Assembly (NCBI GenBank): GCA_018064885.1
Contig: JAGHUI010000013.1
Location: forward strand, 1-64,000
From: Candidatus Minthosoma equi
GTDB taxonomy: Bacteria > Bacteroidota > Bacteroidia > Bacteroidales > Bacteroidaceae
Reading direction: 5' to 3'
DNA: 64,000 nt
The translations under genes were made by a program, and so were the position numbers. Positions 21,780-44,711 of this stretch are shown in pieces (positions within the stretch are counted from its first letter, which is position 1; each line of letters starts with the position of its first letter). A model generated the notes under the pieces. That model was not told where the DNA came from. It did no database searches and saw only the letters and a program-made list of their open reading frames with translations.

Positions 21780-21787
21780 TATATTTG
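21780..21787 (+). promoter_or_regulatory. Candidate -7 box of the pilus operon
   Basis: TATATTTG fits TAnnTTTG and would give a leader of about 95 nt before the DUF3575 ATG. No TTTG occurs at the usual -33 distance. Confidence 0.35.
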
Positions 21788-21889
21788 CAAAAAATAAATC
21801 TGGTACATCAGGAAAACCTTTGTGACTTTTCTGACAAACCTTTAAATCCTATTATTGAAAATTATCTAATTTACTATTGCTATTATACT

Positions 21890-22516: not shown

Positions 22517-23998
22517 ATGAAAAAGATTTTCACAATAATGCTGTTAGCAGCAATTTCTGCCCTGCCAGCACTGAGCGCAACCGATGGCGAGGGCATACAG
22601 ACAAGCCACGTTCAAGTTACACGAGATGAGAACAAGGTGATTGTCACAATGAACATCATTCTTGACCAGATCAATCTCAAGCGCAATCAGCAAGTTTTCG
22701 TAACACCTTATCTTGAAAGCACAGACCATAAGACTGTGGCATCCTTCCCAAGCGTTCTGCTCAACGGACGCAATATGCAGTATGTCTATGAGCGCAGCGG
22801 CATGAGCCGAAAAATGAAAGCAAGCCACGACCAGATTGCGCAGGTTGTCCGCCGCAAGAATGGCACTGAGCAGACACTTTCCTATACAGAGAGCATAGAC
22901 ATCATGCCATGGATGGACGGACAGGAGCTTTCCTTCCATCTTGCCATAGACTCCTGCGGCTGCGGCGTCATTGCTGGTTCTGACCAGTCGGAACTGATGC
23001 AGCTGATGCTAACACCTAAGCTTAGAAAACTCTACACATCTTTTATAATACCTGCTGTGACCGAAGCACCTGTGGCTATTCATGAAGGCAAGGCTCGAGT
23101 GCAGTTCGAAGTAGATCGCACCGAACTCCATGCTGTGCCATACGTATGCAAGAACGGACAGAGAATAGACAACCGTGCTCAGCTGCAAATTATCTGCGAC
23201 TCAATCAATTATGCACTGCGCGATGAAAATGTAGAGATTGCAAACATCAACATCTGCGGTTATGCATCGCCAGAATCGCCTTATGATCACAACGATTTCC
23301 TTGCGACCAACCGTTCTCGCTCATTGGCAGAATACATTGGACAGCGCTATAACCTTCCTAAGGAACGCTGCACATACAGTTCTGTACCTGAGAACTGGGC
23401 AGAATTCCGCGAACAGGTCATAGCTGCTAACGACATCACTGAGAAACAGCGCCAGGATCTTTTGGAGCTCATTGACAAACCTACCTATGGCTCTGCTGAC
23501 TTCGATGCCAAGGAAAGAGCTTTGAAAACCGATCCACGCTATGCAAAACTCTATAAAGAGAAGATTCTGCCTGTCTGGTTCCCTGAGCTGCGATGCACAA
23601 AGTTTGCCATCAGCACTCGCCTGAAACCAACATCCGACGAACAGCTTGCTCGAATCATCAAGACCTCACCTGAGTTGCTGAGTCTCAACCAGATGTTCCG
23701 TGTAGCACGCTTATACCCAGAAGGTTCTGCAGAATTCAATGAGACATTCAGCATCGCTCTCCGCTTCTATACTGACGATCCTGTGGCAAATCTCAATGCA
23801 GCAGTAGCAGCCATCAAAGCAGGAAACTTCGACCAGGCAGCCAAGTATCTGGAAAAGGCAGGTGACAGCCCAGAAGCAGAAAATGCGCGCGGTGTTGTAG
23901 CAGCCAACAACAACGACATGGAAGCTGCACTTCGCCACTTCAATGCTGCCGGTTCATTGCGTGAGGCTGCACTCAACAAATCTCTCATAAAAGAATAA
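22517..23998 (+). CDS. DUF3868 protein with OmpA-like and repeat region
   Basis: A 493-residue exported protein (signal peptide 1-20, cleaved near ALSA). The N-terminal half has the DUF3868 pattern, with IDSCGCGVIAG near residue 150. The middle (about 190-320) resembles an OmpA-like domain: strand, NINICGYASPESP, then NRSRSLAEYIGQRY. The C-terminus (about 395-490) is a helical TPR-like repeat with PVANLNAAVAAIKAGNFDQA and two related helices. Such proteins accompany FimA-type pilins and may tie the assembly site to peptidoglycan. A G-rich stretch (GGGGGAG, 22503-22509) lies just before the start, unusual in this window. Confidence 0.75.
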   Translation: MKKIFTIMLLAAISALPALSATDGEGIQTSHVQVTRDENKVIVTMNIILDQINLKRNQQVFVTPYLESTDHKTVASFPSVLLNGRNMQYVYERSGMSRKMKASHDQIAQVVRRKNGTEQTLSYTESIDIMPWMDGQELSFHLAIDSCGCGVIAGSDQSELMQLMLTPKLRKLYTSFIIPAVTEAPVAIHEGKARVQFEVDRTELHAVPYVCKNGQRIDNRAQLQIICDSINYALRDENVEIANINICGYASPESPYDHNDFLATNRSRSLAEYIGQRYNLPKERCTYSSVPENWAEFREQVIAANDITEKQRQDLLELIDKPTYGSADFDAKERALKTDPRYAKLYKEKILPVWFPELRCTKFAISTRLKPTSDEQLARIIKTSPELLSLNQMFRVARLYPEGSAEFNETFSIALRFYTDDPVANLNAAVAAIKAGNFDQAAKYLEKAGDSPEAENARGVVAANNNDMEAALRHFNAAGSLREAALNKSLIKE

Positions 23999-24047: not shown

Positions 24048-26039
24048 ATGAAAAAGCAATTTTTCTTTTCTATGCTCGCAGCAGCCGCAATGCTGGCAAG
24101 CTGTAGCAGTGAAGATGCCATCGCACCAGACAAAGGTGGCAACGAGTATGGTATGATAGAAGGTCAGCCTGCTTTCATCTCTTTGGGCATTGCTATGCCT
24201 GATGGCGCCTCAACACGTGCCAATGACGACGTCAATGATGGCATTGCAGAAGAATATGAAGTAAAGAGTGGTCGTCTAGTACTTTTCAAAGGTTCTACAG
24301 AAGCATCTGCAACACTTTGGAAACAATACGATATTACAGATAACATCAAGGCTGCTGCAGATTGGGGACTCGAAAGTAGTAGTACTCAAATTACATCTAC
24401 TAGCAAAAAGTTTGTTCAGGAAATAGAGTCTCCCGCACTCGGTGCCTCAGACAAGCTTTGGGCTTATGTTATTTTGAACGACAAGAACAACCTCACTGTT
24501 ACTTGCACACCAGGAACGACATTCCCTATATTTGGCAAACAAATACTCACTGCAATTGGTATTGCTGACGAAACTACAGGTTACGGAAGCCAGAACGCTA
24601 ATGGACTTGTAATGACTAGTGTACCTCTTTCTCCAACTAAGGGTGGTTCTGCTATTGCAACAGGAGCGCCTTATACCCTTACTCCTATCAATGCAAGTGC
24701 AGTCTATCCAACAAAGGCAGAAGCAGAGCTTTCTACTGCAGCCGTTGCATGTTGCTACGTAGAGCGTGCAGCTGTTAAGGTCGATGTTACTGTTAAAGCA
24801 AGCATAACAGACCCTACTGGTTCTGGAACAATTGACAATACAAAGGTTACATGGGGTCTGGGAAATGTAAACAACAATGCATCTGGTTATCATAATACTC
24901 GTCAGTTTGATGCAGCATGGATGCCATACATCAACAAGCAGGTTTCTAATACAGATCCAAGAAGATACCGTTTCGTAAGTGTAAATCCACTCTTCGCCTC
25001 AGATCACATGGAGGGTTATCGTACTTATTTCGGTAGTGATGTTAACTACAATGGCAACGTAGGTCTCATCAACTCTCAGGTTACAACATATCCTATAGCT
25101 AACGGTGGAAAGGCCTACACTTATGAGAACACTTTCGATGAGAATAGCCAGATTTATGCTAACACAACATTTGTTAGCCTTAAGGTTGAATTGAACAATG
25201 GTACTACATTCTACACTATTGATGGTGAGAATAATACAGCTCTCAATCTAGCTGCTCTAAGGACAAAGTTGGCAAACAAAGTTGATGAACAGATTAAGGT
25301 TTCAACTATTGACCCATTAATTGCAGAAATCCAATCAAAAATTACTGCAGACCTCGCCAATTCTTCAGGTGTACTTCGCACTGCAGGTTTTAATGCATCA
25401 GACGTTATTGAATTTACACTTGCACACAACATAACTCTTGCAGGATCACTTGATGCTTTTAATCGTGACACCTACACTGACCATTTAGTTTTCAACTCTA
25501 TTACTGTAAATAGTTCTACTGCTACTACTGCACAAGAGACAGCTATAAAATCAGTAGAGTTTATAACTTCACAGACAATTCAGCAGAAACTTGAAGCAAC
25601 AGAACTCGTAAGTCTTATTACTCCAGAGAAAGTGTTCGTTTACACAAATGGTATTGCTTACTATGCTACCCGAATTGCTCACTTTGGTGATACTGAAACC
25701 CCTTGGAATACAGAATCAGCTTCATACAACAACTACAACAAGATTTATCCTACAGATGGTCAAGCACTTGGTGTAATTCCTAGTGACTATGGAACAAACC
25801 GAGCAAACGCATGGCTTGGTCGTTGGGGTATAGTTCGTAACAACTGGTATTCTATCGTTGTTGATGACATCAAGGGCATCGGTGATGCAACACCATTAAA
25901 CTATAATGGTACAGCTACAGGTCCTGATGGTGACGTTCCTGGTAACACTCCAGATGACAACCCAACACCAAAGTACTACATTGCTGCTCATATCCATATT
26001 CTCCCATGGGTTAAGCGTACTCAGAACGTAGAATTCTAA
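24048..26039 (+). CDS. Major type V pilin (Mfa1-like fimbrillin)
   Basis: A 663-residue lipoprotein pilin precursor. The lipobox is MLASC with lipidated Cys19. A Thr-Arg-Ala site follows (Arg57), matching the arginine-protease processing site of P. gingivalis fimbrillins, where cutting frees the donor-strand groove. The C-terminal domain contains RWGIVRNNWYSIVVDDIKGIG and ends PWVKRTQNVEF, the Mfa1-type fimbrillin C-terminal signature. It lies before an internal terminator and first among the pilin genes, so it is probably the shaft subunit. It is longer than P. gingivalis Mfa1 (about 560 residues), owing to a central region of about 150 residues rich in Asn, Thr and Ser. Confidence 0.85.
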   Translation: MKKQFFFSMLAAAAMLASCSSEDAIAPDKGGNEYGMIEGQPAFISLGIAMPDGASTRANDDVNDGIAEEYEVKSGRLVLFKGSTEASATLWKQYDITDNIKAAADWGLESSSTQITSTSKKFVQEIESPALGASDKLWAYVILNDKNNLTVTCTPGTTFPIFGKQILTAIGIADETTGYGSQNANGLVMTSVPLSPTKGGSAIATGAPYTLTPINASAVYPTKAEAELSTAAVACCYVERAAVKVDVTVKASITDPTGSGTIDNTKVTWGLGNVNNNASGYHNTRQFDAAWMPYINKQVSNTDPRRYRFVSVNPLFASDHMEGYRTYFGSDVNYNGNVGLINSQVTTYPIANGGKAYTYENTFDENSQIYANTTFVSLKVELNNGTTFYTIDGENNTALNLAALRTKLANKVDEQIKVSTIDPLIAEIQSKITADLANSSGVLRTAGFNASDVIEFTLAHNITLAGSLDAFNRDTYTDHLVFNSITVNSSTATTAQETAIKSVEFITSQTIQQKLEATELVSLITPEKVFVYTNGIAYYATRIAHFGDTETPWNTESASYNNYNKIYPTDGQALGVIPSDYGTNRANAWLGRWGIVRNNWYSIVVDDIKGIGDATPLNYNGTATGPDGDVPGNTPDDNPTPKYYIAAHIHILPWVKRTQNVEF

Positions 26040-26144: not shown

Positions 26145-27383
26145 ATGAAACGTTTTCAACGATACATAACTGCTGCTCTGCTTGTGTGTGCGGCTGCTTT
26201 CTTCACAGCCTGCTCAATGATGGAAGATGACCGCTCCGACTGCCCTACAGGACTCTACGTACGGTTCGTCTATGACTACAACACACAGCGTGCCGACATG
26301 TTCAAGGATCATGTGGGTTACGTCACCCTTTATGTCTTCGACGAAAACGGCAACAAAGTCGCTGAGAAGAGTGTCGCCAATACCACTGCCACCATGCCAC
26401 TGGCCCAGTATGGCTACACCATGCATTTCACACCAGAAGAACTGGGCATCAAATCTGGTTCTGCATCAAGCAATTTGGCATCCAGAAAATACCGTCTCCA
26501 AGCCGTAGCCATGCAGAAAGACTGGGATGCAGCTCTCTCAACACCAGGCGCCAAGTACCGCCGCACCGCAGCTACTAACGCCAACGCCCTCACCATAACC
26601 CTCGACCACGAGGCTGCCACAGCTCCAGACGCTTCTACGTCGGGTCTCCACACAGTAAGCAACAGCGCGCCTCTCGACACCCTCTGGCACACCCTCAAGG
26701 TAATGCCAAGCGAACCAACCTACGGCTACAACGCTCCAGCCATAGCAAAGACAAGCAAGCCATACTCAATCTATCCTGTAGAAGATCAGATGGTAAGCGT
26801 TCAGGAAGGCTATGCAACATACGCCACAGTCTCACTTATTCGTGACACTAAGCACCTGAATATCACACTCCGACAACTCGACAATCCTGCTGACATCAAT
26901 GCTGATGACTATGAGGTCACAATCGTGGATCGCAACTCCACACTCGCTGCCGACAATAGCCTTGCATCTGATGACACTCTACTATACACACCATACGCCC
27001 AATGGACAACCAGCTACGACAATGACGGCACACAGATAGATGGAGACATTCATCCTGCAACACGTAGCACAATCATAAACCGCACTGCTCACTACAATCT
27101 GATGTTCAACCGCTTGATGTACGATGCTGACAGTGAGAAATGTGGAAAGCTATGCATACGCAACAAGAAAAATGGCGAAACAGTTGCTCTCATCAACCTG
27201 CCAAGCATCTTGGCTGACGGCCGAATCGCTTATGAAATGTATAACTACAGCCAACAAGAGTACCTCGATCGTGAGTACGACTACGAACTCGACTTCTTCC
27301 TCAAAGGTGACGAGTGGCAGTATCTGGACATCCAAATCCACGTCCTTTCATGGGCACTCCGCAAACAAAACGTAAAACTCTAA
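26145..27383 (+). CDS. FimB/Mfa2-family fimbrial anchor lipoprotein
   Basis: A 412-residue lipoprotein with lipobox FTAC (Cys23). The mature start, with DDRSDCPTGLYVRFVYDYN and then VGYVTLYVFDENGN, is the characteristic opening of the FimB/Mfa2 anchor family. It ends in a beta-rich C-terminus (IQIHVLSWALRKQNVKL) like those of pilins. FimB/Mfa2 proteins sit at the pilus base, keep their lipid and limit fibre length. It follows the terminator and precedes a CTAACC tandem repeat. Confidence 0.85.
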   Translation: MKRFQRYITAALLVCAAAFFTACSMMEDDRSDCPTGLYVRFVYDYNTQRADMFKDHVGYVTLYVFDENGNKVAEKSVANTTATMPLAQYGYTMHFTPEELGIKSGSASSNLASRKYRLQAVAMQKDWDAALSTPGAKYRRTAATNANALTITLDHEAATAPDASTSGLHTVSNSAPLDTLWHTLKVMPSEPTYGYNAPAIAKTSKPYSIYPVEDQMVSVQEGYATYATVSLIRDTKHLNITLRQLDNPADINADDYEVTIVDRNSTLAADNSLASDDTLLYTPYAQWTTSYDNDGTQIDGDIHPATRSTIINRTAHYNLMFNRLMYDADSEKCGKLCIRNKKNGETVALINLPSILADGRIAYEMYNYSQQEYLDREYDYELDFFLKGDEWQYLDIQIHVLSWALRKQNVKL

Positions 27384-27443: not shown

Positions 27444-29048
27444 ATGAAACGTCTCATCTCCATATCACTCTGGACGCTGTCCTTACTGGTTGGTGTATGC
27501 CTCGCAGCATGTACCGACAGGGATGGTGTGGATATGAACGTGGAATCAATTCATACAGAGCCATACCTGCAGCTGCATCTGCGTGTCAATAGTGAGGATA
27601 ATATGGCTACACGTGCCACAACCCCTCTTGGTGGCGAAGATGGCGATGGCAGAGAAGATGGTGTTCGTCACGAGAACGAACTTAAAAATGTCACTGTATT
27701 CATAATACGTGGCAATATGAACTCTGCCGCCTCCACAAATTTCCTATACAAAGGTTATATGAAACAAGGCGATGCAGGATGGACAGATGTAACAGGTGGC
27801 GTTGACATTAAGTTCCAGACAGGCGCATACTTGCCACAGAATAACGACCGTGTCATCGTTGTGGCAAATGCAGGCAATCTCACATCTATCAACAATCTGG
27901 GCGATCTGCGTGACGGTACTACATATTCTGCTTGGCATAATGGCGCAACACTGGCAAATAACGACTTGTTTGTCATGACATCAGCATACAACAGTTCGGA
28001 TGGCTTGGTGAATATTTCCGCACATACAGGCTTTGAAGGCGATCCTTATCTGGCATCCAAAATCAACATTCAGCGTGCAGCAGCTCGTATCGACTTCATG
28101 TACAAAGAGACGGACAATTTCACTGGCACTGTGCCATCGTCAGAACTCTTCTACAAAGTTAAAGATTCAGAGAACACCAATGAGCTTGCCACAGTTCATC
28201 TTGAGAACATAATACCAGTAAATCTGATGCAGGAAAGCAGCTACCTCCTACGCCGTGTGACTACATCTAACTATGTGACATCCAGCGTCCTGCACGGTGC
28301 GTTGGAAACTGCTGATGCCAATCACATTCCTACTAACTATGTCATTGAACCTCATACACTGGCAAAGCAAAGTTCTGTGGATGAGACAAAACTTAATGAA
28401 TGGTATGGCAGCACTCGTGCCAAGACAATCTTTGACAATCCTGCCTCACACCTCACAAACACAGGCATTGCAGATTATGTGGCTACGCAGACGACAGCTT
28501 CTCCTCTTGAATTGGGATACTTCAGTCATTATATGACTCTTGCCTACACTAATGAGAATACGCAATCAAAAGAGAAACATAGTCCAGACTTTATGACAGG
28601 ACTGCTCTTGAAAACTGTTTACGAACCAAAGACTGTCTATTCTGATGCAAGTCTTACAGTAGCATCCTATACTAAGGGTACTACATTCTGGCGTTATTCG
28701 CCAACCAAAGCATCTATGGTAGAAGAAGACAGCAAATATTTCACAAGCCAAACAGCAGCAAATGATTATAAGACTGCTCATCCTGAAGATCTTGCAGAAA
28801 TTGTGGAATATCAGAATGGTGTCTGCTACTATAACATCTGGCTGCGCCATGCCAATACCAACAGCGATCCGCACATGACATTCCCTATGGAATATGGCAT
28901 CGTGCGCAACAACATATACCGAGTGGGCGTAGAAAAGTTCACAGGTCCAGGATCACCAACGCCTAAGTACGATGGTCCTGAGCATGTTCATCTGCGCATT
29001 TTTGTTCGCCCATGGAACAAGCGAGAACATCCTGAGATCTTATTATAA
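27444..29048 (+). CDS. Minor pilin-like lipoprotein (Mfa1-type C-terminus)
   Basis: A 534-residue lipoprotein with lipobox CLAAC (Cys23) and a Thr-Arg-Ala site with Arg57, the same position as in the major pilin. The C-terminal domain carries MEYGIVRNNIYRVGVEKFTG and ends with LRIFVRPWNKREHPEILL, a fimbrillin-type ending. It has a Gly-Glu-Asp-rich patch after the processing site. It lies downstream of the anchor and is probably an accessory or sub-terminal subunit comparable in place to FimC/Mfa3. Sequence alone does not fix which. Confidence 0.75.
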   Translation: MKRLISISLWTLSLLVGVCLAACTDRDGVDMNVESIHTEPYLQLHLRVNSEDNMATRATTPLGGEDGDGREDGVRHENELKNVTVFIIRGNMNSAASTNFLYKGYMKQGDAGWTDVTGGVDIKFQTGAYLPQNNDRVIVVANAGNLTSINNLGDLRDGTTYSAWHNGATLANNDLFVMTSAYNSSDGLVNISAHTGFEGDPYLASKINIQRAAARIDFMYKETDNFTGTVPSSELFYKVKDSENTNELATVHLENIIPVNLMQESSYLLRRVTTSNYVTSSVLHGALETADANHIPTNYVIEPHTLAKQSSVDETKLNEWYGSTRAKTIFDNPASHLTNTGIADYVATQTTASPLELGYFSHYMTLAYTNENTQSKEKHSPDFMTGLLLKTVYEPKTVYSDASLTVASYTKGTTFWRYSPTKASMVEEDSKYFTSQTAANDYKTAHPEDLAEIVEYQNGVCYYNIWLRHANTNSDPHMTFPMEYGIVRNNIYRVGVEKFTGPGSPTPKYDGPEHVHLRIFVRPWNKREHPEILL

Positions 29049-29057: not shown

Positions 29058-30338
29058 ATGAAACGACACATATATTACATATTTATAGGACTGATGATTT
29101 TTGTCATTGCAGCCTGCACCTCTGATGAAACGGAGTACAAAGAAGAAGGCGAGATGACTCATGTTGGCATGCAAATCTGCACTCGTGCTACTGGCACGCC
29201 AGAAACGACAACCGTCACCAACGAACTTATACACTCTTGGTGGGTGGTGTTTGTAAATGCTGCGGGCAATGTTCAGAAGATTGTTGATCGTCCTTCTGCT
29301 CTTATCTCATACGTGGAGGAGGAGAAAGTGGACTTCGACATACCTGTCGGCACCTATACCCTTTATGCTTTTGCCAATATCAGCAAGACTGATTTGAAAA
29401 CAAATACAGGACTCACCTTCACCGAAGGAGCAATCTGTCCCACTGGCATTGACACAAAGACATTCGCCCTCACCAACGGCTATACAGGTGAGATTCCTAT
29501 GACTGGCAAGCAGAGTGTCATGGTTACAGGCCGTGCCAACGAAACATTCAGCATTGAAGTCATCCGCATGCTTGCAAAGATGGAGTTTCAGTTCAAGAAT
29601 GAATCAGGCAAACAGATAACGGTAAAAAGTGTAAATATACAGCAGGATCAGACACTTAACGTACCACTTATGCCAAACAATACTTGGCTGGATTCAGGTT
29701 TACCATTTGTAACAACTGTTACCCGAGGAGACTATCTGCATACCTTCTCACCAGCAATTGCTCTTGATGCAAAGGGCGGTACATCTCCAACGGGCACAGG
29801 AATATTCTATATGGCTGAGTCTCAGGCAGACCATCTTACGCCATATCAGAGTTACTTGATGACCTTGAATGTCACCAGAGGGGGCGCAAATGAAAACCTC
29901 CTCTTTGCTTTGGATAACAACAAGATAAAGACCATCTATCGTAATGACCACGTCATCATACCTCTTACAATAGGCGACTATGAGGTGGGGCTTGATGTCA
30001 TATTCTATCCCCCAATTGGCGGTTATCCTCCCGTCATGACAAGGAACGATAATGAGTTCTACGTCACCTTCCTGACACAAGGTGAGTTCGAGATTAAGCC
30101 AACCATCATCAACATGATGACAAGTACTCCCGTCTATTATCCAAATTGGACTATCGAGTCTCTTACCGTAAGTGACCCATCAACAATCTTCGCCATTGCT
30201 CCTCATGTGGATTCAACTGGCGAGATCCTCGGCAAGGTTAAGGACATCGAAGGCACCGCCGTTGTTGACATTCAGATTAAGGTGGCAGCAACAGGCCAAG
30301 TCTATCCTCGTCGCATCTACATAATCCGCAAAAACTGA
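29058..30338 (+). CDS. Minor pilin-like lipoprotein
   Basis: A 426-residue lipoprotein with lipobox VIAAC (Cys20) and a Thr-Arg-Ala motif at Arg43, closer to the lipid than in the two larger pilins. The N-terminal domain reads like FimA/Mfa pilins (IHSWWVVFVNAAGNVQ, FDIPVGTYTLYAFANI) and the second half is a beta-sandwich ending TGQVYPRRIYIIRKN. It has no Mfa1-type C-terminal signature. It is 9 bp after the preceding gene and 29 bp before the giant gene, and is probably a tip-proximal subunit. Confidence 0.65.
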   Translation: MKRHIYYIFIGLMIFVIAACTSDETEYKEEGEMTHVGMQICTRATGTPETTTVTNELIHSWWVVFVNAAGNVQKIVDRPSALISYVEEEKVDFDIPVGTYTLYAFANISKTDLKTNTGLTFTEGAICPTGIDTKTFALTNGYTGEIPMTGKQSVMVTGRANETFSIEVIRMLAKMEFQFKNESGKQITVKSVNIQQDQTLNVPLMPNNTWLDSGLPFVTTVTRGDYLHTFSPAIALDAKGGTSPTGTGIFYMAESQADHLTPYQSYLMTLNVTRGGANENLLFALDNNKIKTIYRNDHVIIPLTIGDYEVGLDVIFYPPIGGYPPVMTRNDNEFYVTFLTQGEFEIKPTIINMMTSTPVYYPNWTIESLTVSDPSTIFAIAPHVDSTGEILGKVKDIEGTAVVDIQIKVAATGQVYPRRIYIIRKN

Positions 30339-30367: not shown

Positions 30368-33300
30368 ATGAGACAACTCAACAACATATACCCTCGCCTC
30401 CTCCTATGTATCCTTTCCCTCATTGCCGCCACTGTGGCAATGGGACAGGAGATAGTTGTACCTATAAAAAGCATAACAGCAACACCTGAGAAAGAAGGAA
30501 CTGTAGAACCACATACACATAATGGTGCTGCACATTCACTGAACAATCTTCTGGACAATGATGCAAATACAACATGGATTGCTGATCAATCAAGGGATAT
30601 TAAGATTCTAAGTTTCTTGCAATTGAGAAAGGTTGACGACACAGATAATGGTTTGCGCAGTTGGATAGAGTTGCCTTACGCACCAAATAAAAATACAGAA
30701 ATTGAAGTCGTATTCGAAAAAGAGGGTGCTACCGATTGGAAAACAGAATACATATTTGGTTGTGGCGGCCTTTATGACCCTGGTTTATCATTTGGACTAT
30801 TACGAAAGAATAATAGTGAATCTGTGATGACTAACTATTATTTATATACAAATGGTTCACGTCACGACAAAACTGTTTCAGAGTTTACAGGTAAGCACAC
30901 TTTGAAATACTCAGCAATTTCATTACAGTTGGATGATGAGCCTGCAGAGGATGTGAGCGGAAATAATCTGGAAGGCGCTCACAACCTTTGTTTCTTCTAT
31001 AATCCGTATGCAGATAAGAGCGGTGCAAGAAGTTTCAAGGGCAAGATTTATAGTGTGAAGATACGCGAGAATGGCAAATTGCGCTATGAACTTGTGCCTG
31101 CTGCTGAGAAGGGAATGTCAGGTTTGTACGATCGTATTAGCACAGATTTCTTTCCATTCAATGCAGAGGGTATCGACTATGTAGAGAATACATATACAGA
31201 GGCTTATAGCAACACGGCTCGAATTCATGTAAAGATTCCTCTTTTGCCAGAGCCTCAGTCAGGCTACGAATGGTCTAACAATCTGGTAAAGAACGGTTAT
31301 TTAACAACAAACGACCTTAGTTCGTTAACTCCTAATACTCATACTACACGAGAGATTGTCACTATTGACAATGGCAAAGCTCTAAAAATAACGAGTGCTA
31401 ATAAACCCGAAGATCAACAAGATTATTATAGTCAATTATTTATTAAACTGAACGAACAACTTTTGCCAGGTGATAAATACTACGTATCATTTGACTATAA
31501 AGCAGACAAGGCTGCTCATGTAAACTCCCAATTGCAGAAAGGTGAAGGTCAGTGGTATGGCGGATGTGCTGTTAGTGCAGATTTCACAACTTCGTGGAAG
31601 AGAGGAACATGGGAAGGCACTATAGACCAGCCAAGTAGCCAATCTGCTGTTGGCATTATAGCATTAAGCTTGAATGATCTGGCAGAATCTAATGAATATT
31701 ATATCACAAATATTGTAGTAAGAAAGCAAAATGTCAAGTCTGATCAAGGAAAGGTTTGGTCGGAGAATCTTGCATCTACATTCACAGCTGGTAGCAGTGC
31801 AACAGTTTCTGGCAGCCGTGACGATATGACCATTACCTATGATGGAACAGAAGCTAATCCTTGGGACAGTCAGTTCATAATAGGCTTGAGCGAACCTTTG
31901 CTGCCTAATGGAAAGTATTACATTTCTTTCTCATATAAAGCTTCTAAAGCTAATAATGTAGGTTCGTATTTGTTATCACAAACTGGTACTTATGATGCAG
32001 ATATCTCTGGGGCTATGAAAACTCTCAGCTTTACCGAGAATTGGCAGACATGCGATATGGAGGTTAGAACTGTAAATGCAAGTATTCCCGAAGGTACTCC
32101 ACCTATGCGTGTGGGATTCAATATGAATGTAAAAGACGGTATCACATATTATTTGAAAAATATTGTCATTAAGAAACAAATGGATCCAGAGCCAGAGGTT
32201 ACACCTGCAAACGAACCTTCGGCTGATACTGATATGAAGTGGTCGAAAAACTTGGTTAAGAATGGCAACTTTAAGTCTGACGATATGACATCATATGATG
32301 TTTGGCCTAAATCTGGAGAGACTCCAACTACATGGTCAATAGTAGATGGGCATGATGGGGGCAAGGCCGTAGAAGTTATAAGTAATTTGACAAGTGGCGA
32401 CACTTGGGAAAGTAATTTTAATATCTCACTTGATGAGGTAATCAATCCTAATGAAAAGTTCTACATATCATTCGATTATAAGGCGGCAGAAAAGACAGCT
32501 TCAATCGTTATGGCTTATAATAATAATAGTGGTGAACAAATAGCATATAATCCAATCTCTTTATCTCCGGCTACCACTGACTGGCAAACCTATACATCTG
32601 CTGCACTGACGAATGATAAAACGAGTGCCATAAAGAAACTTGTCTTGATGTTGAACGAATCCAAATCTGAGACGAAGTTTTATTTTACCAACATTGTCAT
32701 CAAAAAACAGATTTCTAACGAAGTTCCTGCATACGATGCCCCTGCAACAGAAATCAACATTCGTTTCAAAGATTTAAATGAAAGCACAGGGGATCAGTAC
32801 ACTTCTCGTCATTTGTTCAGTCTCGGCACATACGAAGAAAAAATACTTGCACTTACTACAAATCAAAAGAGATACAAATATGTAAGTGGTGGTAGAGAAA
32901 AATATACTGATGACATTAGAAACAATGATGACATTTTTGAAGCCACATTCACACCAGGAGAGATTACTATAGGCGGAAAAACATATACCGTAGATGGCAA
33001 TCCTACATGGAACAGTGCAGATGCTCTTTACTTAATGGGCACGCACATACAAACTAATGTTACTGGAACAAATCCTTGTTCTTTCATCGGTCAGATTTAT
33101 AGTGCTACAGTAAAGGAGAATGGTCTTCTGATCTATGATCTCATTCCTGTTGTGGGCGATAATGGAGAATACGGCTTTGCAGACAAGATTACAGGTAAAT
33201 TCTTTGGCGTGGACGGCTGTTCTGGAGCTGGTACTGATGGCAGACTTGGTGGCAGTTCTGCAGGGGGATATGGCGGTGGAGCTACCGAGACAGACTTCAA

Positions 33301-36300
33301 GATGCCTTTCAAGATAGACTTAACTACTGATCCTCAGGTAGTCAGAGACTTTTCCATTACAACAGCATTACGTGACCAAGGAGAAAATCCTGCCAATTAT
33401 AACAATCCTGACAAATGGCTATTGTACGCCTCCAATGATGGCAACCTGTGGACAAAGCTGAGCATAGCTCCGCCTTCTTTCTCTAAGCAAGACATTGATG
33501 CGAACGAGGAGTATTATCTATATAATGTAGAGGCAGGCACATTCCTTGCAGGTGCTAACGAATGGATGACACGTGCCAGTGTGACGGGTAATCCAAGTCG
33601 TTTCAAGATAGAAAGTAATGGCGACGGAACTTATAAATTATTGAATTACGTAAATCTAAGTTGGGCAGAACCAGCATGGAAATACTTGTTTGTTGGCGAT
33701 AACAACGACATTTGGATTGATAGAAACGAACAGGTAAACTACGACAAATGGATACTGACAAAGATTGACGCAAATGAAGGCGTTTATGAAATCTCTTTCC
33801 AAGGGCATGATGGCAAGGTCGGTACAGCTCAGGACAATTACGTTACTGATAGTCGTCTTTACATCCGCAATGATGTAAAGAATACAAAATGGGCTCTTGT
33901 CAAGGCTTCTGACTACTCTAAGTATGTTGCAGCAGATGCCGATGAGGAACCTAATGTACGACTGCAGACCAATGGCGTTAAATACAAGTTCAGAATAAAA
34001 AACAGTACAGAGTCATTCACGCAGTACCGTCTTGTTGTTGAAAAAGTTATACAGAAAAATAACACTTTCTCTCGCCTACGTTTGGGCGACCTGTCACTTT
34101 CTACAAATTACGTTTTTGAGCACTATCACGGACGCGTTTATGACGAATCTCCCACCGATATTCCGGAAAACTTACGTGTGGGTGGAACTAGTGGCTATCA
34201 GACAGATTATAAGACTTCGGCTGACGATATTCGTTTGAATGCCGGTGTAACAATCCAGCGTACTCATGAATATGAGCATGTAATATACGTGTTGCCTGGA
34301 ACAACCGTAAACCTCACTCCGTTCTCAGACTTTGATATCCCGAATGTAACTAACGATGATGCCTGGGGCAACGCCTATAACTACCGTGAGCAATATATTC
34401 GCTGGTATGATTATAATACTGACATGCGTTCAAATAACCTTTCCTTCGACCCACGAAATGGTCATAAAGTCAATCCTCTGGATGCTGGCCATTTTGCTTG
34501 GAACCACAGAGCAGATGGTCGCAGAACACGTGAAGGTTCTGTCGCAAAATATACAGCTGATGCCAATCCTACTGTTGATGACAATGGCGTGATTGACGTG
34601 ATAGCTTTGGAGGCTGCCAATGTCTTTGATACTCAAGACAATTGTGAGTTAAGGGATAACGCATACTTTGTGATCAAGGAGCCAACCCTCCAGTGGCGTC
34701 ATACCTTTGTTATTAAGGATGCCCGTGTGCGTGCGGATGAAATCGCTGCTAATAACGCAGCTTATATCAAGAAGAACAAAATCACGCTGATGTGCCCATC
34801 TGAAACTCCTTTCCAATATCCTCTTCCATGCTTCGAGTATGCTGTGGGTGATGGAACTGGACATCCCACAGATTTTTACAAGAAAACAGGAGAAGGTATT
34901 TATGAACCGATAGAACATTACTTGATAGAAACAGAACGAGGTGATCATAGTAAATCAACTACATATCTCGACTTTTCTGAAGGCAAAGCAACTGTTAAAA
35001 AAGACGGAAATCTTGCGAATGAGGAGACAACTTATTCTTTCAAAGAAAAGGATGGCTACAATCGTGTATTCTATTTGCAACATCCTATAACGAATCCAGG
35101 AGGTAGTATGGGAGAATACACCATTAGGATTTTTGCTTATGATAAGGATGCAACGGACAAGAAGGGTATTCAGTTAATGGAATATGACCTTAAGGTTTTG
35201 CTCAATAAAGATGGCTACATGGTGAACGCAGAGACACTTTATGCTAAGAATGACGATGACGAATATACCTACACTTATACAAACCAGATACCTGAAATGA
35301 TGGACAAGGCTTTCGGACAGCCTACCACTAAGATTGATTTTGACGAAGTAAAGGATACTGATGCAGAGCCTGTGGGGGGCAACCATTATTTCAAATGGCC
35401 TTGGCAATGGGAGAACTCTTCGTACGGTTTCGGATATGAGGATCGTGGTGACTATAACATGTACATGGTCGCCGACCACATGAGTATCACTCCATATCAT
35501 GGAGGTAATGATGATGATATGACAGATCGCGACGTCTATGACCGCAAGTACTACGACAACGATGAGGAGCCAGATAAGCGAGGCTATTTCTTCTATGCCA
35601 ATGCGGCATCCGATCCAAGCCGTATGGCTGTGCTGAATATCGGTCGTGACTTCTGTCCTAATACAAAGGTGTATGTATCGGCATGGATCAATGAGTGCCA
35701 GGGTAAGGACTTGTATGCTGAAACCGCTAACGTAATATTCTCCTTCCGCGGCGTGAAAGCAGATGGCACTGAGACTGTGCTCAATAGTTTTGTTTCAGGT
35801 TATGTGAGTGGTGGTTGGAATACGCCTACTGGATACTTCCCAAAAACAAAGGGTAAAGATTCTGATGGTAAAGAAATTGATGTCATTAATCATGTTAATC
35901 CTACAACCAACCCTGACAACCGAGGAAAGTGGATGCACGTATATTATACATTTAGCACTACAGAAACTGATACAGACTTTGATCATTACATCATTACCCT
36001 TGAGAACAACTGCACAAGCTCAGAGGGTGCTGACTATGCTATTGATGATATACGATGTTATGTGCGTAAACCTCAGATGAGTGCTCGATTCATGAAACCA
36101 GTATGTAATGGCGACCCTACCACTCAAATGGAGCTGTATGGTGATTTTGATTTGCTGGATGAAGCTTTCTTATTTAGTGAAGAAACAAACACTGATTTGA
36201 CTTTGAATTATTGTTTCCTTGACCGTGAAGTCTATGAAGATGAAATGCAAAAGGCTTATAATAATAGCTCTTACAAAGCGAATTATTCGTCTTTGAAAGA

Positions 36301-39300
36301 TTGGAGAGATAACTCTTTGAAAAAAACTGGAGAGGAATATAATGCGTTCGTTAACGCTTATAAAGCGGCTTTCAATACAGCATTACTTAAGGTTTACGAT
36401 AGCAACAATAGTGCAAGTCATGGTACTCTGAGTCTAAAAAAAACATATACGGATAATAAAGAATATCCAACCACCGAGCCTACCCCTCCACAGATTTATA
36501 ATATTCCTGCAGAGGCCGATTATTATATTGGAATGAAACAACAAGTAGGAGATATTAAGAATATCATCTTCTCTTGTAAAACTAATGACAGCCAGATAAA
36601 GCCAGGCAAACGCTATATATTGGCAATTTCAAAGGAAGGAACAACTGCTACTGATTTTGCATTAGAGGGCAAGTGTAGTTCATCAACTGATTTCGAGGTG
36701 CCTATGCCTACTACCATCAAAATTGATGGTGCGATACAGTCAAATCTCTCTGGTATGAGTTATTGTGCTAACCAGCGTCCAGAAGTTGATATTGATTTGA
36801 ACGGTATCATGGTTGGCGGAACACCTATATCTTCCAGCGACTTGGGCATTAATATATTATATGACTGGTACTATGGTCCTATGGGTGCATTAAATGAAGA
36901 ACATAGGGCTCAAGGTTATACACGTTCTTATATGGATGAGGAAAAGGGAAGTATCAAACTCTATGATGCCATGTTGTATTTCCGTGATAAAAATCCATCC
37001 GCTACACAAGATCAAGTGTTGGGTGCAGAAACAGGTAATAACAACGGACTCAAAGTTGAAGGATCATTTACAGAAGATATGCTCCTTTATATTAAGGAAA
37101 TGGTGGAATCGGGAAGGATGTCTCTCTACAAAGACAAAGCATTTGCTACCGCACATATTTATGGTGAATCACTGTATCCTACCGAACAAAAATACTTCTA
37201 TCTAACAGCTCAGCCTATTGATCCAAAAATAAAAGATGTAGAATTCTGCCTGGAGGCAATAAATATTGGCATTAAGGTTAATGAGTTGACTCCTCAAATG
37301 AAAGATGGAGACAGCAAGGTTACTAATTATCCTGAGACAATGCATGATGTGCCTATCCGAATAGGATTGAAGCAACTCAAGAAAGCAGTAGTTTCTGATG
37401 TCTTGGCATCATCGGCACCAGAGCATCAATTGTGGATTCCTTTGCGTGCCATTAATACAGTAACTTCTGATGCAGAGGAACTCACAAAGGATGAAGACTT
37501 CCTGATGTATCTTGTAGATACAGACGATCCAAATGTAGAAAAGGGGGCTTCTGGCGCGAAGCTAATAGACGAACCTGATGCAGAGCAAGTTGAACCTCCT
37601 TACATATTGAGAGGAGCTCCAATAAATGGCAAGAGTTTTGTCATAGGAAAAGTGATTGACATTGCTGCAAATAAGACCACGAATGAAAATGTTTGTAAGG
37701 TTTCTTTCCTCAAATCATTTAAGTTCCGTGAGGGATATTGGTATACTGTCAAGTTCCACTTTAAGGAAGTGTTCAAGGATGGCCAAGATCACCCTGAGGT
37801 ATGTTCTGGCGATTTGATATACACAATCAAAGTGGTACCAGAATATCAGATGTGGACGGGTGAGGTAAGTCGCAACTGGAACGATGACCGCAACTGGCGT
37901 CGTGTAACACGCAAAGAGTTGCTTAACCCAACCGAGACAAATGTGCCTGCAGAGTATGTTTACGATGGAAAGGACGAAGATACGAATTACATCAATAACA
38001 ACACATCAAGTTTTGCTCCTGCCGAATTTACTAAGGTTATCATTCCTGCGGAACTTGAGCGAGTGCCTTATATGTATAACTTGCGCGAGGATGCCAATAA
38101 AATATCTGTACACTTTACGGGGGCTCCCGTTGCAGGCGATCAGCTCATGACAACAAGACCTACTTCGGATATTTTCGACGAGATACAAGGTCCCGATGCT
38201 AACGATAAAGCAACTCTTGACTTGGATGGTCAGATGTTTGTTATCACAAACGAAAGCGGAACGAACACGTTGGGAGTAACCTTAAAGGACGGAGTTCGTA
38301 CAGGAGGACCACAGGATGCCTTCGTTGTCAACAATAGGGTTTATTCTGCTGACATACATGTATATGCTAAGTTTGCTAAAGTTGTGAAAGCTGGTGTAGA
38401 TGGTGACGCCTATACTATTCAGCTTTGTAATGCTGACGGTAAAAACTACTCTTGTTATGGGCAAAATGGTTATCTGAACTTCCAGCCTACAAATAATATT
38501 GTTTTCGCCCTCGGTCTTGGTGATAACGAAAGGTATGGTCAAGATGGTGATAACCTAGGTCTCTGGAGGGTTTTCATGTCTGGTGATGGTATTATTATTA
38601 AGAATGTTGGACGTGATGCTTACCTGAATCCAAGTGAGGCAAAGCCTTCATCTGTACCTGTTGTATGTCAACTCGCTAAGAGTTTCAGTACTTTAGGAGC
38701 AGGCGAAATTTATCATCAAACCTCACTCGTCCAGTTCGACATGGCATCAATAGACCGTTCTGACAACGATGTCGCCTGCCGTCCATGGTACGACCATACC
38801 TGCGATCAGATTCACTTCAATGCTGGAGCAGAAATTATGGATCAGCGATACCTATATTATAATAAGGCATGGTGTGATATAGAGGTTCCTGTTGGCACAT
38901 GGCAGACAGTAGCATCACCTCTCATGAACATCGTAGCTGGCGACCTGTATCTGCCTACAGCAAGCGCAAGACAGAATACTCCGCTGTTTGAGGATATCAC
39001 ATACAGCCCAAATCTTAACGACCGTTTCAAGCCTGCTGTGTTCCAGCACTCTTGGAATAAGAGCATGGCTAAGGTGTATGAACTAAGTGCTGATAAAACT
39101 AGTGTTGCAGAACGCAATGTGGGAGTAAAACTCGATTGGAGTCACGTTTACAATGATGTGAATGTGCAGTATGGTGCAGGTCAAGGCTTCTCAATCAAAG
39201 TTGATGTAAGCGCAATGCCTGAAACTGACCGACCAGCCGTTGCTAAGTTCCGCTTCCCTAAGGCTGATACACAATACACATATTATAATCCAAGCAATAC

Positions 39301-40471
39301 GGATGGCGAAAAGAAAACAGAGACTGTAATAGATGGAAATACGAACGCAGATGGTTCTCCGATAAACTATGGTCCAGATTCAAACGCCAAGCGACCTGGA
39401 CGTCTGAGTGACCTGTCAGGCACATTCCAGCAGATGGTGGGTGACACTGGTGACAACCAAAATCCTGCCACTCCAACCAGCTATTTCCTTGTGGGCAACC
39501 CTCTGATGTGCTGGCTGAATATGGAGAAGTTCTTTGATAATAACAGTCAGTTCGAGAAAAAATACTGGATTGCCACTGCCGATGGACAGCGCACAGCACT
39601 TTTCACCGAAGGAGGATTCATAAGCACAGAAAACAATCCTAAGTTCTTGCCACCAGGCGTATCTTTCTTTGTTAAATTGAATAATAATCAGGAAGGCACC
39701 ACTACAAGCGGAAGACCGGCTATAAATGTCACGCCACAGTTCACCGCTGATATGATGTCGTACACTCAAGGGGAAAAGACAAACGAGCCAACAACAGACA
39801 ACAGACAAAACGGTGCCAAGCAGACACGAGCAGCGTCTCAAACTGTAATTCCACAGCTTTCGCTCAATGCCACAGACATGAACGGACAACAGAGCAAAGC
39901 TGTGCTGACCGATGGTACAAAATTGCAGCACAATGGTGTTGAGACACTCTTCGACTCAAATATGAAGAATGACATTATCCTTTACACAACAAAGAATGGT
40001 CAGGCCCAGACAATAGCCAACATCACACCAGGCGACACACTGCCACTCATCACTGGAAATGTGAATGGAGAAGTTAAACTGCAAATCAATGGCGCTGCAG
40101 ATTTCGATTATCCTCTCTACATTATCGATAGTGAGGAAGGAACCGTGCTGCCTCTCGATGCAGATGTCATTTTGAGTCAGACAACAAATGGAGTGCGCTA
40201 CTACATAGCATCATCTGTCGAGCATCAAAACAATGATCTGCAGGCAAACCTGCCTCGAGTAACCGCTCAGCATGGAAGAATCACTGTATATGCTCCGGCA
40301 GGAGAAGTGATCAGCTCATCACAGATATTCACAACAAACGGACAATGTGTTGACCGTGCATCAAACATCACCACTTCTCACACCGCCACCCTCCAGCAAG
40401 GCATCTACATTGTGAAGCTGCAAGTAAACGGAACTTCATACACATATAAATTATTATTAACAAGCAAATGA
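30368..40471 (+). CDS. Giant T9SS-targeted surface protein, pilus operon
   Basis: A 3367-residue exported protein with a Sec signal peptide (cleaved near VAMGQ, residue 27). In order: a LamG-like region (about 85-275), three tandem 160-residue galactose-binding/CBM-like repeats (302-780), a second LamG-like region (about 785-955), a trefoil-like stretch (about 1050-1170), a long unassigned acidic beta-rich middle, a segment with MWTGEVSRNWNDDRNWRRV (about 2495) typical of T9SS cargo, and a C-terminal domain (about 3295-3367) with ITVYAPAGE, QGIYIVKLQVNGTSYTYKLL, matching the type A T9SS sorting domain. Context suggests an adhesin attached to or alongside the pilus, comparable in logic to P. 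gingivalis Mfa5, though I see no von Willebrand domain. Its last codons overlap the redoxin gene (ATGA). Confidence 0.8.
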   Translation: MRQLNNIYPRLLLCILSLIAATVAMGQEIVVPIKSITATPEKEGTVEPHTHNGAAHSLNNLLDNDANTTWIADQSRDIKILSFLQLRKVDDTDNGLRSWIELPYAPNKNTEIEVVFEKEGATDWKTEYIFGCGGLYDPGLSFGLLRKNNSESVMTNYYLYTNGSRHDKTVSEFTGKHTLKYSAISLQLDDEPAEDVSGNNLEGAHNLCFFYNPYADKSGARSFKGKIYSVKIRENGKLRYELVPAAEKGMSGLYDRISTDFFPFNAEGIDYVENTYTEAYSNTARIHVKIPLLPEPQSGYEWSNNLVKNGYLTTNDLSSLTPNTHTTREIVTIDNGKALKITSANKPEDQQDYYSQLFIKLNEQLLPGDKYYVSFDYKADKAAHVNSQLQKGEGQWYGGCAVSADFTTSWKRGTWEGTIDQPSSQSAVGIIALSLNDLAESNEYYITNIVVRKQNVKSDQGKVWSENLASTFTAGSSATVSGSRDDMTITYDGTEANPWDSQFIIGLSEPLLPNGKYYISFSYKASKANNVGSYLLSQTGTYDADISGAMKTLSFTENWQTCDMEVRTVNASIPEGTPPMRVGFNMNVKDGITYYLKNIVIKKQMDPEPEVTPANEPSADTDMKWSKNLVKNGNFKSDDMTSYDVWPKSGETPTTWSIVDGHDGGKAVEVISNLTSGDTWESNFNISLDEVINPNEKFYISFDYKAAEKTASIVMAYNNNSGEQIAYNPISLSPATTDWQTYTSAALTNDKTSAIKKLVLMLNESKSETKFYFTNIVIKKQISNEVPAYDAPATEINIRFKDLNESTGDQYTSRHLFSLGTYEEKILALTTNQKRYKYVSGGREKYTDDIRNNDDIFEATFTPGEITIGGKTYTVDGNPTWNSADALYLMGTHIQTNVTGTNPCSFIGQIYSATVKENGLLIYDLIPVVGDNGEYGFADKITGKFFGVDGCSGAGTDGRLGGSSAGGYGGGATETDFKMPFKIDLTTDPQVVRDFSITTALRDQGENPANYNNPDKWLLYASNDGNLWTKLSIAPPSFSKQDIDANEEYYLYNVEAGTFLAGANEWMTRASVTGNPSRFKIESNGDGTYKLLNYVNLSWAEPAWKYLFVGDNNDIWIDRNEQVNYDKWILTKIDANEGVYEISFQGHDGKVGTAQDNYVTDSRLYIRNDVKNTKWALVKASDYSKYVAADADEEPNVRLQTNGVKYKFRIKNSTESFTQYRLVVEKVIQKNNTFSRLRLGDLSLSTNYVFEHYHGRVYDESPTDIPENLRVGGTSGYQTDYKTSADDIRLNAGVTIQRTHEYEHVIYVLPGTTVNLTPFSDFDIPNVTNDDAWGNAYNYREQYIRWYDYNTDMRSNNLSFDPRNGHKVNPLDAGHFAWNHRADGRRTREGSVAKYTADANPTVDDNGVIDVIALEAANVFDTQDNCELRDNAYFVIKEPTLQWRHTFVIKDARVRADEIAANNAAYIKKNKITLMCPSETPFQYPLPCFEYAVGDGTGHPTDFYKKTGEGIYEPIEHYLIETERGDHSKSTTYLDFSEGKATVKKDGNLANEETTYSFKEKDGYNRVFYLQHPITNPGGSMGEYTIRIFAYDKDATDKKGIQLMEYDLKVLLNKDGYMVNAETLYAKNDDDEYTYTYTNQIPEMMDKAFGQPTTKIDFDEVKDTDAEPVGGNHYFKWPWQWENSSYGFGYEDRGDYNMYMVADHMSITPYHGGNDDDMTDRDVYDRKYYDNDEEPDKRGYFFYANAASDPSRMAVLNIGRDFCPNTKVYVSAWINECQGKDLYAETANVIFSFRGVKADGTETVLNSFVSGYVSGGWNTPTGYFPKTKGKDSDGKEIDVINHVNPTTNPDNRGKWMHVYYTFSTTETDTDFDHYIITLENNCTSSEGADYAIDDIRCYVRKPQMSARFMKPVCNGDPTTQMELYGDFDLLDEAFLFSEETNTDLTLNYCFLDREVYEDEMQKAYNNSSYKANYSSLKDWRDNSLKKTGEEYNAFVNAYKAAFNTALLKVYDSNNSASHGTLSLKKTYTDNKEYPTTEPTPPQIYNIPAEADYYIGMKQQVGDIKNIIFSCKTNDSQIKPGKRYILAISKEGTTATDFALEGKCSSSTDFEVPMPTTIKIDGAIQSNLSGMSYCANQRPEVDIDLNGIMVGGTPISSSDLGINILYDWYYGPMGALNEEHRAQGYTRSYMDEEKGSIKLYDAMLYFRDKNPSATQDQVLGAETGNNNGLKVEGSFTEDMLLYIKEMVESGRMSLYKDKAFATAHIYGESLYPTEQKYFYLTAQPIDPKIKDVEFCLEAINIGIKVNELTPQMKDGDSKVTNYPETMHDVPIRIGLKQLKKAVVSDVLASSAPEHQLWIPLRAINTVTSDAEELTKDEDFLMYLVDTDDPNVEKGASGAKLIDEPDAEQVEPPYILRGAPINGKSFVIGKVIDIAANKTTNENVCKVSFLKSFKFREGYWYTVKFHFKEVFKDGQDHPEVCSGDLIYTIKVVPEYQMWTGEVSRNWNDDRNWRRVTRKELLNPTETNVPAEYVYDGKDEDTNYINNNTSSFAPAEFTKVIIPAELERVPYMYNLREDANKISVHFTGAPVAGDQLMTTRPTSDIFDEIQGPDANDKATLDLDGQMFVITNESGTNTLGVTLKDGVRTGGPQDAFVVNNRVYSADIHVYAKFAKVVKAGVDGDAYTIQLCNADGKNYSCYGQNGYLNFQPTNNIVFALGLGDNERYGQDGDNLGLWRVFMSGDGIIIKNVGRDAYLNPSEAKPSSVPVVCQLAKSFSTLGAGEIYHQTSLVQFDMASIDRSDNDVACRPWYDHTCDQIHFNAGAEIMDQRYLYYNKAWCDIEVPVGTWQTVASPLMNIVAGDLYLPTASARQNTPLFEDITYSPNLNDRFKPAVFQHSWNKSMAKVYELSADKTSVAERNVGVKLDWSHVYNDVNVQYGAGQGFSIKVDVSAMPETDRPAVAKFRFPKADTQYTYYNPSNTDGEKKTETVIDGNTNADGSPINYGPDSNAKRPGRLSDLSGTFQQMVGDTGDNQNPATPTSYFLVGNPLMCWLNMEKFFDNNSQFEKKYWIATADGQRTALFTEGGFISTENNPKFLPPGVSFFVKLNNNQEGTTTSGRPAINVTPQFTADMMSYTQGEKTNEPTTDNRQNGAKQTRAASQTVIPQLSLNATDMNGQQSKAVLTDGTKLQHNGVETLFDSNMKNDIILYTTKNGQAQTIANITPGDTLPLITGNVNGEVKLQINGAADFDYPLYIIDSEEGTVLPLDADVILSQTTNGVRYYIASSVEHQNNDLQANLPRVTAQHGRITVYAPAGEVISSSQIFTTNGQCVDRASNITTSHTATLQQGIYIVKLQVNGTSYTYKLLLTSK
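31271..32710 (+). repeat. Three tandem CBM-like repeats inside the giant gene
   Basis: Repeats begin at Trp302, Trp464 and Trp625 (DNA 31271, 31757, 32240), a period of 161-162 residues. Each opens with W-S-x-N-L, contains YYISFSYKAS or close variants (YVSFDYKAD, YISFDYKAA), and ends with NIVVRKQ or NIVIKKQ. The layout resembles carbohydrate-binding galactose-binding-fold modules. The second copy is slightly shorter. Confidence 0.7.
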
Positions 40472-40986
40472 AACGCGTCTTTGCATTTCTGTATGTGACA
40501 CTATCCGTTCTTCTCTCATCATGCTTGCAGGATGATGCCGACATGGAAAAGAAAAACTTGCAGGTCGGGGATGCCATGCCGCCGTTCGAGGTGGAACTAT
40601 GCATCCCTGACAAGCAGGACTGGAGACACGATGCTTCAACCACAAGCATTTTGGTTCGCAGTCATGAACTGAAAGGAAAGACTGCAATCATTTGTTTCTT
40701 CAATACAAAATGCGAAGACTGCCAGCATGAACTGCCGCAGCTACAAAAACTATACGAAAAAAATAGAAGCGACAATCACTACGCTTTTCTTGCCATCGCC
40801 CGCGAAGAGAAAAAAAAAGACATTGAAGATTTCTGGCATCAGCACAACCTGACTCTCCCCTACAGCGCACAATCTGATCGCAGAATCTACAATCTTTTTG
40901 CCACAGTAACCATCCCACAATTTTATGTCATTAACGAGCAGGGATACATCATAATTCATGAAAACATCATAAAAATGCCATTTTAG
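40468..40986 (+). CDS. TlpA/redoxin-fold lipoprotein
   Basis: A 172-residue lipoprotein (lipobox LLSSC, Cys19) with a thioredoxin fold of the TlpA/AhpC type. The strand AIICFFNTKCEDCQHELPQL carries the active-site Cys82 and Cys85, and the cis-Pro loop is TIPQFYVI (Pro150). The active site CEDC differs from the usual CxPC. The protein ends soon after the last strand (IHENIIKMPF), so the final helix is short or missing. Its ATG overlaps the stop of the giant gene, so it belongs to the pilus operon. It may act on disulfides of pilus or T9SS cargo proteins in the periplasm. Confidence 0.8.
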   Translation: MKRVFAFLYVTLSVLLSSCLQDDADMEKKNLQVGDAMPPFEVELCIPDKQDWRHDASTTSILVRSHELKGKTAIICFFNTKCEDCQHELPQLQKLYEKNRSDNHYAFLAIAREEKKKDIEDFWHQHNLTLPYSAQSDRRIYNLFATVTIPQFYVINEQGYIIIHENIIKMPF

Positions 40987-41174: not shown

Positions 41175-41361
41175 TTTCCACCTATTATATAAAAATAGCT
41201 AATCGATCAACAATAATAAAAAATACGTTTTTCACCTATTATATATTAATACCGTTTTCACCTATTATATATAACAACATCTATTATACGTTTTCACAAA
41301 AGAGGCAAAACTCTTGAAAGAGAGAAACACCTCTATCCGAGTATATAGTATCTATTATATT
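41175..41361 (+). repeat. CACCTATTATATA direct repeats in susC leader
   Basis: CACCTATTATATA preceded by TTTC occurs at about 41176-41191, 41229-41245 and 41256-41271. Shorter CTATTATA copies lie at 41281 and 41352. The spacing is irregular (about 27-54 bp). Related CACCTGTTATAA and CTCCTATTATATA sequences precede the LruC gene (about 46988 and 47017). Confidence 0.7.
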
Positions 41362-44699: not shown

Positions 44700-44711
44700 A
44701 ACTCAGAAACA

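Follow-up and report, generated by a model that had tools for sequence, protein, structure and literature searches.

A giant Mfa5-like T9SS cargo protein encoded in a type V pilus operon of Candidatus Minthosoma equi, and relatives with two kinds of predicted export signal

The analysed stretch of DNA (the window; 64,000 nucleotides of contig JAGHUI010000013.1) carries eight closely spaced genes, from a DUF3575 gene through a redoxin lipoprotein gene, in the order DUF3575, DUF3868-TPR, Mfa1-family, Mfa2 anchor, second Mfa1-family, FimD/Mfa2-like, giant and redoxin. The intergenic gaps along this order are 18, 49, 105, 60, 9, 29 and -4 bp, and the giant gene is the seventh of the eight. The genes and the features within the giant gene are as follows.

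21785..22498, + strand, DUF3575 outer-membrane-barrel-like protein, operon gene 1 (PF12099, E 1.1e-62)
22517..23998, + strand, DUF3868/OmpA-like/TPR protein (PF12984, E 9.8e-14)
24048..26039, + strand, Mfa1-family fimbrillin, Mfa1a (PF15495, E 1.7e-20; NF038041, 129.4 bits against a cut-off of 130; PDB 4jrf, E 3e-8)
26145..27383, + strand, Mfa2-type anchor lipoprotein (PF08842, E 2.7e-37; PDB 4qdg, E 6.5e-20, and 3gf8, E 8.1e-20)
27444..29048, + strand, second Mfa1-family fimbrillin, Mfa1b (NF038041, 168.5 bits, above the cut-off; PF15495, E 9.3e-19)
29058..30338, + strand, FimD/Mfa2-like accessory lipoprotein (PF08842, 22.9 bits against a cut-off of 21.2)
30368..40471, + strand, 3367-aa Mfa5-like T9SS cargo (ORF, sequence, TIGR04183)
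about 30575-31222, + strand, LamG-like candidate, copy 1 (crosswise P0001/P0009 match)
31238..32722, + strand, CBM_4_9-like region, two or three copies, about residues 291-785 (PF02018)
32714..33265, + strand, LamG-like candidate, copy 2, residues 783-966 (crosswise P0001/P0009 match)
33473..33967, + strand, ricin-B/beta-trefoil-like candidate module, copy 1, residues 1036-1200 (PF14200, E 0.33, not significant)
38126..38719, + strand, 198-aa module missing from P0009, residues 2587-2784 (P0001 compared with P0009)
38783..39760, + strand, conserved core preceding the sorting domain and common to the family, residues 2806-3131 (A3 profile)
40289..40456, + strand, T9SS type A sorting domain (CTD; TIGR04183, 25.6 bits against 23)
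40468..40986, + strand, TlpA/ResA-like redoxin lipoprotein with a CxxC motif, CEDC (PF00578, E 1.6e-13; 4-bp overlap with the giant gene)

The Mfa1-family fimbrillin at 24048..26039 is probably the stalk pilin. The product of 29058-30338 shows a weak match to the FimD model NF052322, confined to its N-terminal third (29.3 bits, cut-off 170; E 3.6e-7), and PDB searches with P0007 and with the FimD-like alignment gave no lead. Mfa1b and the FimD-like gene are equated with mfa3 and mfa4 by position only. Upstream of the pilins, the DUF3575 gene in its ATG-start version is a 202-aa ORF that leaves the 18-bp gap to the next gene, and relatives of that next gene's DUF3868/OmpA-like/TPR product are found 5' of the pilin genes in many of the surveyed loci.

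The giant protein (P0001) is encoded by an uninterrupted forward-strand frame running from ATG to stop at 30368-40471, with no internal stop and no N. The possibility of an artefact was rejected on these grounds and because an orthologue of 3275 aa (P0009) is encoded at another locus (L137). P0001 begins with a Sec-type signal that has no lipobox, as judged by eye and by pattern, and its residues 3308-3363 match TIGR04183, the T9SS type A sorting domain; the score is modest and little above the cut-off, and the Pfam version of the domain stays below its own (16.6 against 27). The window genome encodes nine sorting domains above cut-off together with SprA (2613 bits) and a PorU-type sortase (941 bits). 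P0001 contains 30 cysteines. Neither a VWF type A domain nor a catalytic domain was found by Pfam at E up to 1, the NCBIfam matches at E up to 0.1 are confined to the sorting-domain tail, and a comparison with PDB chains gave no match. The initial annotation, made from the sequence alone, had described a 3367-residue protein that ends in a T9SS sorting domain and whose gene lies between a minor pilin and a co-translated redoxin; both points are borne out, the first by the TIGR04183 score and the second by the FimD/Mfa2-like lipoprotein gene upstream and the redoxin gene that overlaps the giant gene by 4 bp.

Redoxin homologues with a CxxC motif and a lipobox-like start lie directly 3' of the giant genes of L137 and L105, and that of L105 also overlaps its giant gene by 4 bp; homologues occur elsewhere in five more pilus loci (L068, L069, L086, L114 and L118). 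The redoxin might help to handle disulphides in the giant or in the pilins, which we offer as a guess. The C-terminal end of the window redoxin falls about 10-20 residues short of most homologues. A motif resembling TTTCACCTATTATATA was seen by eye in about three copies between the redoxin gene and susC (window about 41175-41290), and a SusC/SusD-type pair follows the redoxin gene at 41400-46643. Such pairs are common, so its ragA/ragB-like place may be due to chance. In Porphyromonas gingivalis, ragA/ragB are described downstream of mfa5, the same relative place (PMC8313007).

The N-terminal part of P0001 is modular. PF02018 (CBM_4_9) scores just below its cut-off on residues 627-763 (23.8 against 25.9), finds three copies above cut-off in the orthologue P0009 (46.5 bits), and is above cut-off in L075 as well; same-genus proteins match residues 297-460 and 602-787 of P0001. 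Self-comparison of P0001 at E 0.01 revealed no internal repeat. On either side of the CBM_4_9-like region lie the two LamG-like candidates; the first copy in P0001 pairs with the second in P0009, and the second in P0001 with the first in P0009 (E 5e-6). The four candidate copies of the two proteins were aligned together, and at E up to 1 the Pfam LamG model matched none of P0001, P0009, L068 and L075. Where LamG-like and CBM-like modules had been annotated, the CBM assignment is supported by way of the orthologue and the LamG assignment is not confirmed. The ricin-B-like candidate module has stretches of 28-42% identity in other large proteins of the window genus, and a related protein, L044, matches ricin-B, CCL2, FRG1 and fascin, each below cut-off; all four are beta-trefoil families. 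For the 198-aa module, the nearest kin seen belongs to a rhamnogalacturonan lyase from the window's genus (L043; 41-45% identity; assigned by PF21348, E 2.9e-110), and further kin occur in other large proteins of that genus. The nearest relative found for the whole protein is P0009 (MAG contig JAGHUS010000004.1), which is 45% identical to P0001 over residues 291-2586 and 59% over residues 2785-3364.

The giant resembles Mfa5 of P. gingivalis as far as the available portions of the cited sources describe it. Among the Mfa proteins, Mfa5 alone needs the T9SS for export (PMC7835359); PorU removes its CTD, and Mfa3 links it to Mfa1 and Mfa4 (PMC5954841). Mfa5 has a conserved C-terminal half that includes the CTD and variable N-termini, and a VWF domain is reported for genotypes A-C only, genotypes D and E being without it (PMC8313007). 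A Sec signal, a T9SS sorting domain, a conserved C-terminal part and a variable N-terminus are thus shared by the two, and the giant is like genotypes D and E in having no VWF domain. Its gene is also, like mfa5, the last pilus gene in an order resembling mfa1-mfa2-mfa3-mfa4-mfa5 (PMC8313007). It differs in being overlapped by the redoxin gene. The CBM_4_9-like modules are a further difference, and so is size, the genotype E gene measuring 6,615 bp (PMC8313007) against 3367 aa here. The likeness to Mfa5 is drawn by description; the A4 profile, made from the C-terminal region and lying partly before the sorting domain, gave no match in three f109 genomes, whose kinship with Porphyromonas is a guess. 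Compared with the Bacteroides type V tip pilins, which are likewise accessory type V pilus subunits, the giant differs in having no lipobox and in carrying a T9SS sorting domain; the signal of those tip pilins is of the kind found in the lipoprotein versions of the giant's family described below.

In an initial search with residues 968-3367 of P0001, the C-terminal part found matches beside pilin clusters in other genera. Nine relatives (A1) yielded a profile of the conserved stretch that precedes the sorting domain (A3; 2806-3131 in P0001), and with E 1e-8 as the limit it matches 60 of 399 genomes of the family. Scoring was confined to five candidates per genome, so the gene numbers are lower bounds. 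The surroundings read for all 60 genomes, the window serving for its own, hold 80 core ORFs, which reduce to at least 75 distinct genes once copies read twice or cut short are removed; their products range from 885 aa (a truncated gene) to 3958 aa. Ten of the 75 genes, with no labelled pilin and less than 900 bp of upstream sequence, were set aside. Among the 65 that could be judged, 56 genes from 16 genera lie no more than 6 kb from a same-strand gene labelled as a pilin, which is upstream in 55 cases, and nine have no labelled pilin nearby. The pilin labels come from profiles seeded with pilins of the window and of L037; in a loose control, 12 loci of the window genus fetched for module matches (157 ORFs) contain no labelled pilin. 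The pairing of a T9SS cargo with lipoprotein pilins, for which Mfa5 had been named as the precedent, is supported and, in this survey, widespread. Length and the missing von Willebrand domain had also been put forward as setting the giant apart from Mfa5. Both claims were overstated: five of the 75 survey genes are longer (3518-3958 aa), and genotype E measures 6,615 bp. Size and the missing domain are not exceptional, because relatives reach 3958 aa and genotypes D and E, as described in the source available to us, have no VWF domain either.

Directly upstream of the 56 linked genes lies a FimD-like gene in 32 cases, another labelled pilin in 20, and an unlabelled gene or none in four. The full order Mfa1a-Mfa2-Mfa1b-FimD-like-giant recurs in 18 of the 56. 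Other pilin types, some of which have no Pfam match above cut-off, make up a second layout, which is associated with the other major branch of the tree. That the giant is common in its own genus was rejected, since of the 60 core-matching genomes, out of 399 family genomes with an unstated share of this genus, only the window's own belongs to it; an Mfa2 match above cut-off is present in 32 of 45 genus genomes, and among the matches listed in the search with residues 968-3367, the other genus genomes cover only short module stretches. Two core genes occur in one stretch in G254, G228, G243, G269, G168 and G334 (L069, L076, L112, L114, L075 and L091/L110), which resembles the P. gingivalis strains reported to have two mfa5 genes (PMC8313007). 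In five g15 genomes (L063, L065, L066, L080 and L081) a CTD-version giant is found without labelled pilins and is preceded by a further large protein that looks secreted; the five preceding proteins have tails that are mutually alike and unlike those of the giants.

The family genes differ in what follows the core. At least 211 residues follow it in 63 of the 75 genes and 11-164 residues in the other 12, a division drawn with the SprA result already known, with ranges that do not touch (164 against 211). At E 0.01 or better, TIGR04183 matches 43 of the 63 long tails, missing 20, and none of the 12 short tails. A CTD model built from the 63 tails finds the tail of P0009, which lay outside the model and itself lacks a TIGR04183 match at E 0.1, and finds none of the 12 short-tail genes. 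Every one of these 12 genes encodes a signal in which a cysteine follows G, A or S and has an aspartate in the second place after it; a loose lipobox pattern occurs in seven of the 63 CTD genes, none of them with that aspartate. Eight of the 12 lipoprotein-version genes have labelled pilin neighbours. SprA is present in 49 of the 60 core genomes (7 of 9 and 42 of 51), and the 11 without it are G053, G084, G159, G193, G210, G288, G348, G391, G410, G424 and G452. All 12 lipoprotein genes are in these 11 genomes and the 63 CTD genes are in the 49 SprA-positive ones, without exception; the PorU-type sortase agrees with the SprA pattern in the nine genomes tested. It seems that the relatives use one or the other of two routes out of the cell, in line with whether their genome has the T9SS machine.

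A tree of 76 rows (the 75 genes and P0009), rooted at the midpoint, separates a group of 46 rows, which includes the window and consists of CTD genes with no lipoprotein member, from a group of 30 rows with 18 CTD and 12 lipoprotein genes. The export label changes three times on the best tree, and a single origin is not rejected (p-AU 0.337). The match with SprA is for this reason a correlation only, complete in the sample and possibly resting on one event; a sign test on independent pairs had too few pairs, a single one lying on well supported branches. The lipoprotein-version cores at L040 9421-13200 and L055 2965-6744, from genera g10 and g14, are nearly identical, with end branches of 0 and 0.017, which suggests that the pilus locus was recently transferred horizontally. 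We regard it as an evenly balanced proposal that this is one giant pilus accessory family with T9SS-cargo and surface-lipoprotein versions, in which the version tracks the T9SS of the genome. The pair of export versions is new here and is a more interesting result than the giant itself; no alternation of export routes is described in the titles and abstract openings searched, a coverage that excludes most subscription papers and preprints.

Outside the family, at the order level, the core is matched in 18 of 393 genomes, the window's own included; of the 17 others, 12 supplied the 13 regions that were read. Two of them (L138 and L141) contain a pilin operon. The other 11 show no profile-labelled pilin, some for want of upstream sequence, and this number is an upper bound because the core gene of L150 is immediately followed by a lipoprotein gene (G536:C1:832603-833697) that matches the FimD model NF052322 with 63.9 bits (cut-off 170). 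The A4 profile also matches the gliding-adhesin homologue RemZ of Flavobacterium johnsoniae (E 5.5e-14), which the available part of the source describes as a RemA homologue and type A T9SS substrate (PMC10994853); by profile, the likeness of RemZ to the giant covers the sorting domain and the part of the C-terminal region ahead of it. Given the RemZ match and the 11 of 13 regions without a labelled pilin, the core is not pilus-specific and would be part of a wider set of T9SS cargo.

We propose, with fair confidence, that the giant is an Mfa5-type, T9SS-exported accessory subunit of the type V pilus whose modules lie at or near the tip, held there by the FimD-like and Mfa1b proteins. Sec would carry it across the inner membrane, and the sorting domain would then take it through the SprA translocon across the outer membrane before being removed. 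The N-terminal carbohydrate-binding modules would thereby arrive at or near the pilus tip, where the neighbouring FimD-like and Mfa1b proteins would hold the giant in the pilus, while the remaining pilins would surface as lipoproteins. Cleavage, incorporation into the pilus, the tip position and the role of the neighbours as Mfa3/Mfa4 equivalents are modelled on P. gingivalis Mfa5; by this analogy the giant is probably an accessory subunit at the pilus tip. Glycan binding is predicted from the modules, and the CBM_4_9 modules and the module akin to part of a lyase would fit the glycan-binding tip adhesin of the initial annotation. A conserved C-terminal region joined to exchangeable N-terminal modules is the best reading of the family plan. 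The proposal draws on the sorting domain scoring above its cut-off, on SprA and the PorU-type sortase in the genome, on the recurrent position beside pilin genes in an order like that of mfa1-mfa5, on the published account of Mfa5 and on the CBM_4_9 copies of P0009. Against it stand the A4 and PDB searches, which gave no sequence link to Mfa5, the presence of the core outside pilus loci and in RemZ, the nine of 65 judged genes with no labelled pilin nearby, and the 24 of 56 linked genes in which something other than a FimD-like gene is directly upstream. The separate transcription of mfa5 in P. gingivalis (PMC5954841), the modest sorting-domain score of P0001, the P0009 tail that TIGR04183 does not match and the 20 of 63 tails that fall short of E 0.01 also count against it.

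Both the RemZ match and the 11 of 13 other-family regions in which homologues show no labelled pilin neighbour (some being short of upstream sequence) would also suit a RemA/RemZ-type adhesin, exported by the T9SS and tethered to the cell surface, that is merely co-regulated with the pilus and stays outside the fibre. We consider this unlikely, given the pilin genes near 56 of 65 judged genes, the FimD-like gene that immediately precedes 32 of the 56, the eight of 12 lipoprotein versions that are likewise near pilin genes, and the precedent of Mfa5 in the accounts available (PMC7835359, PMC5954841). Far less probable still is a soluble or surface glycan scavenger tied to the SusC/SusD pair, with the pilus operon as an accidental neighbour: the downstream SusC/SusD-type genes and the module akin to part of a rhamnogalacturonan lyase speak for it, but the Pfam and NCBIfam searches reported above revealed no catalytic domain and nothing beyond the sorting-domain tail, respectively, and the linkage to pilins recurs in 16 genera.

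The Mfa5-type reading turns a single precedent into a recurrent pattern, a large modular protein encoded beside pilin clusters in 16 genera of one family, and the exchangeable N-terminal modules suggest a way in which pili could be retargeted to new glycans. If the two export versions do belong to one pilus accessory family, incorporation into the pilus would depend on the shared core, independently of the exit route, and lineages without a T9SS could keep their pilus loci working by exchanging the signal at each end of the gene. Such a natural pair of export versions would make it testable why a pilus subunit uses the T9SS and which part of it the pilus recognises.
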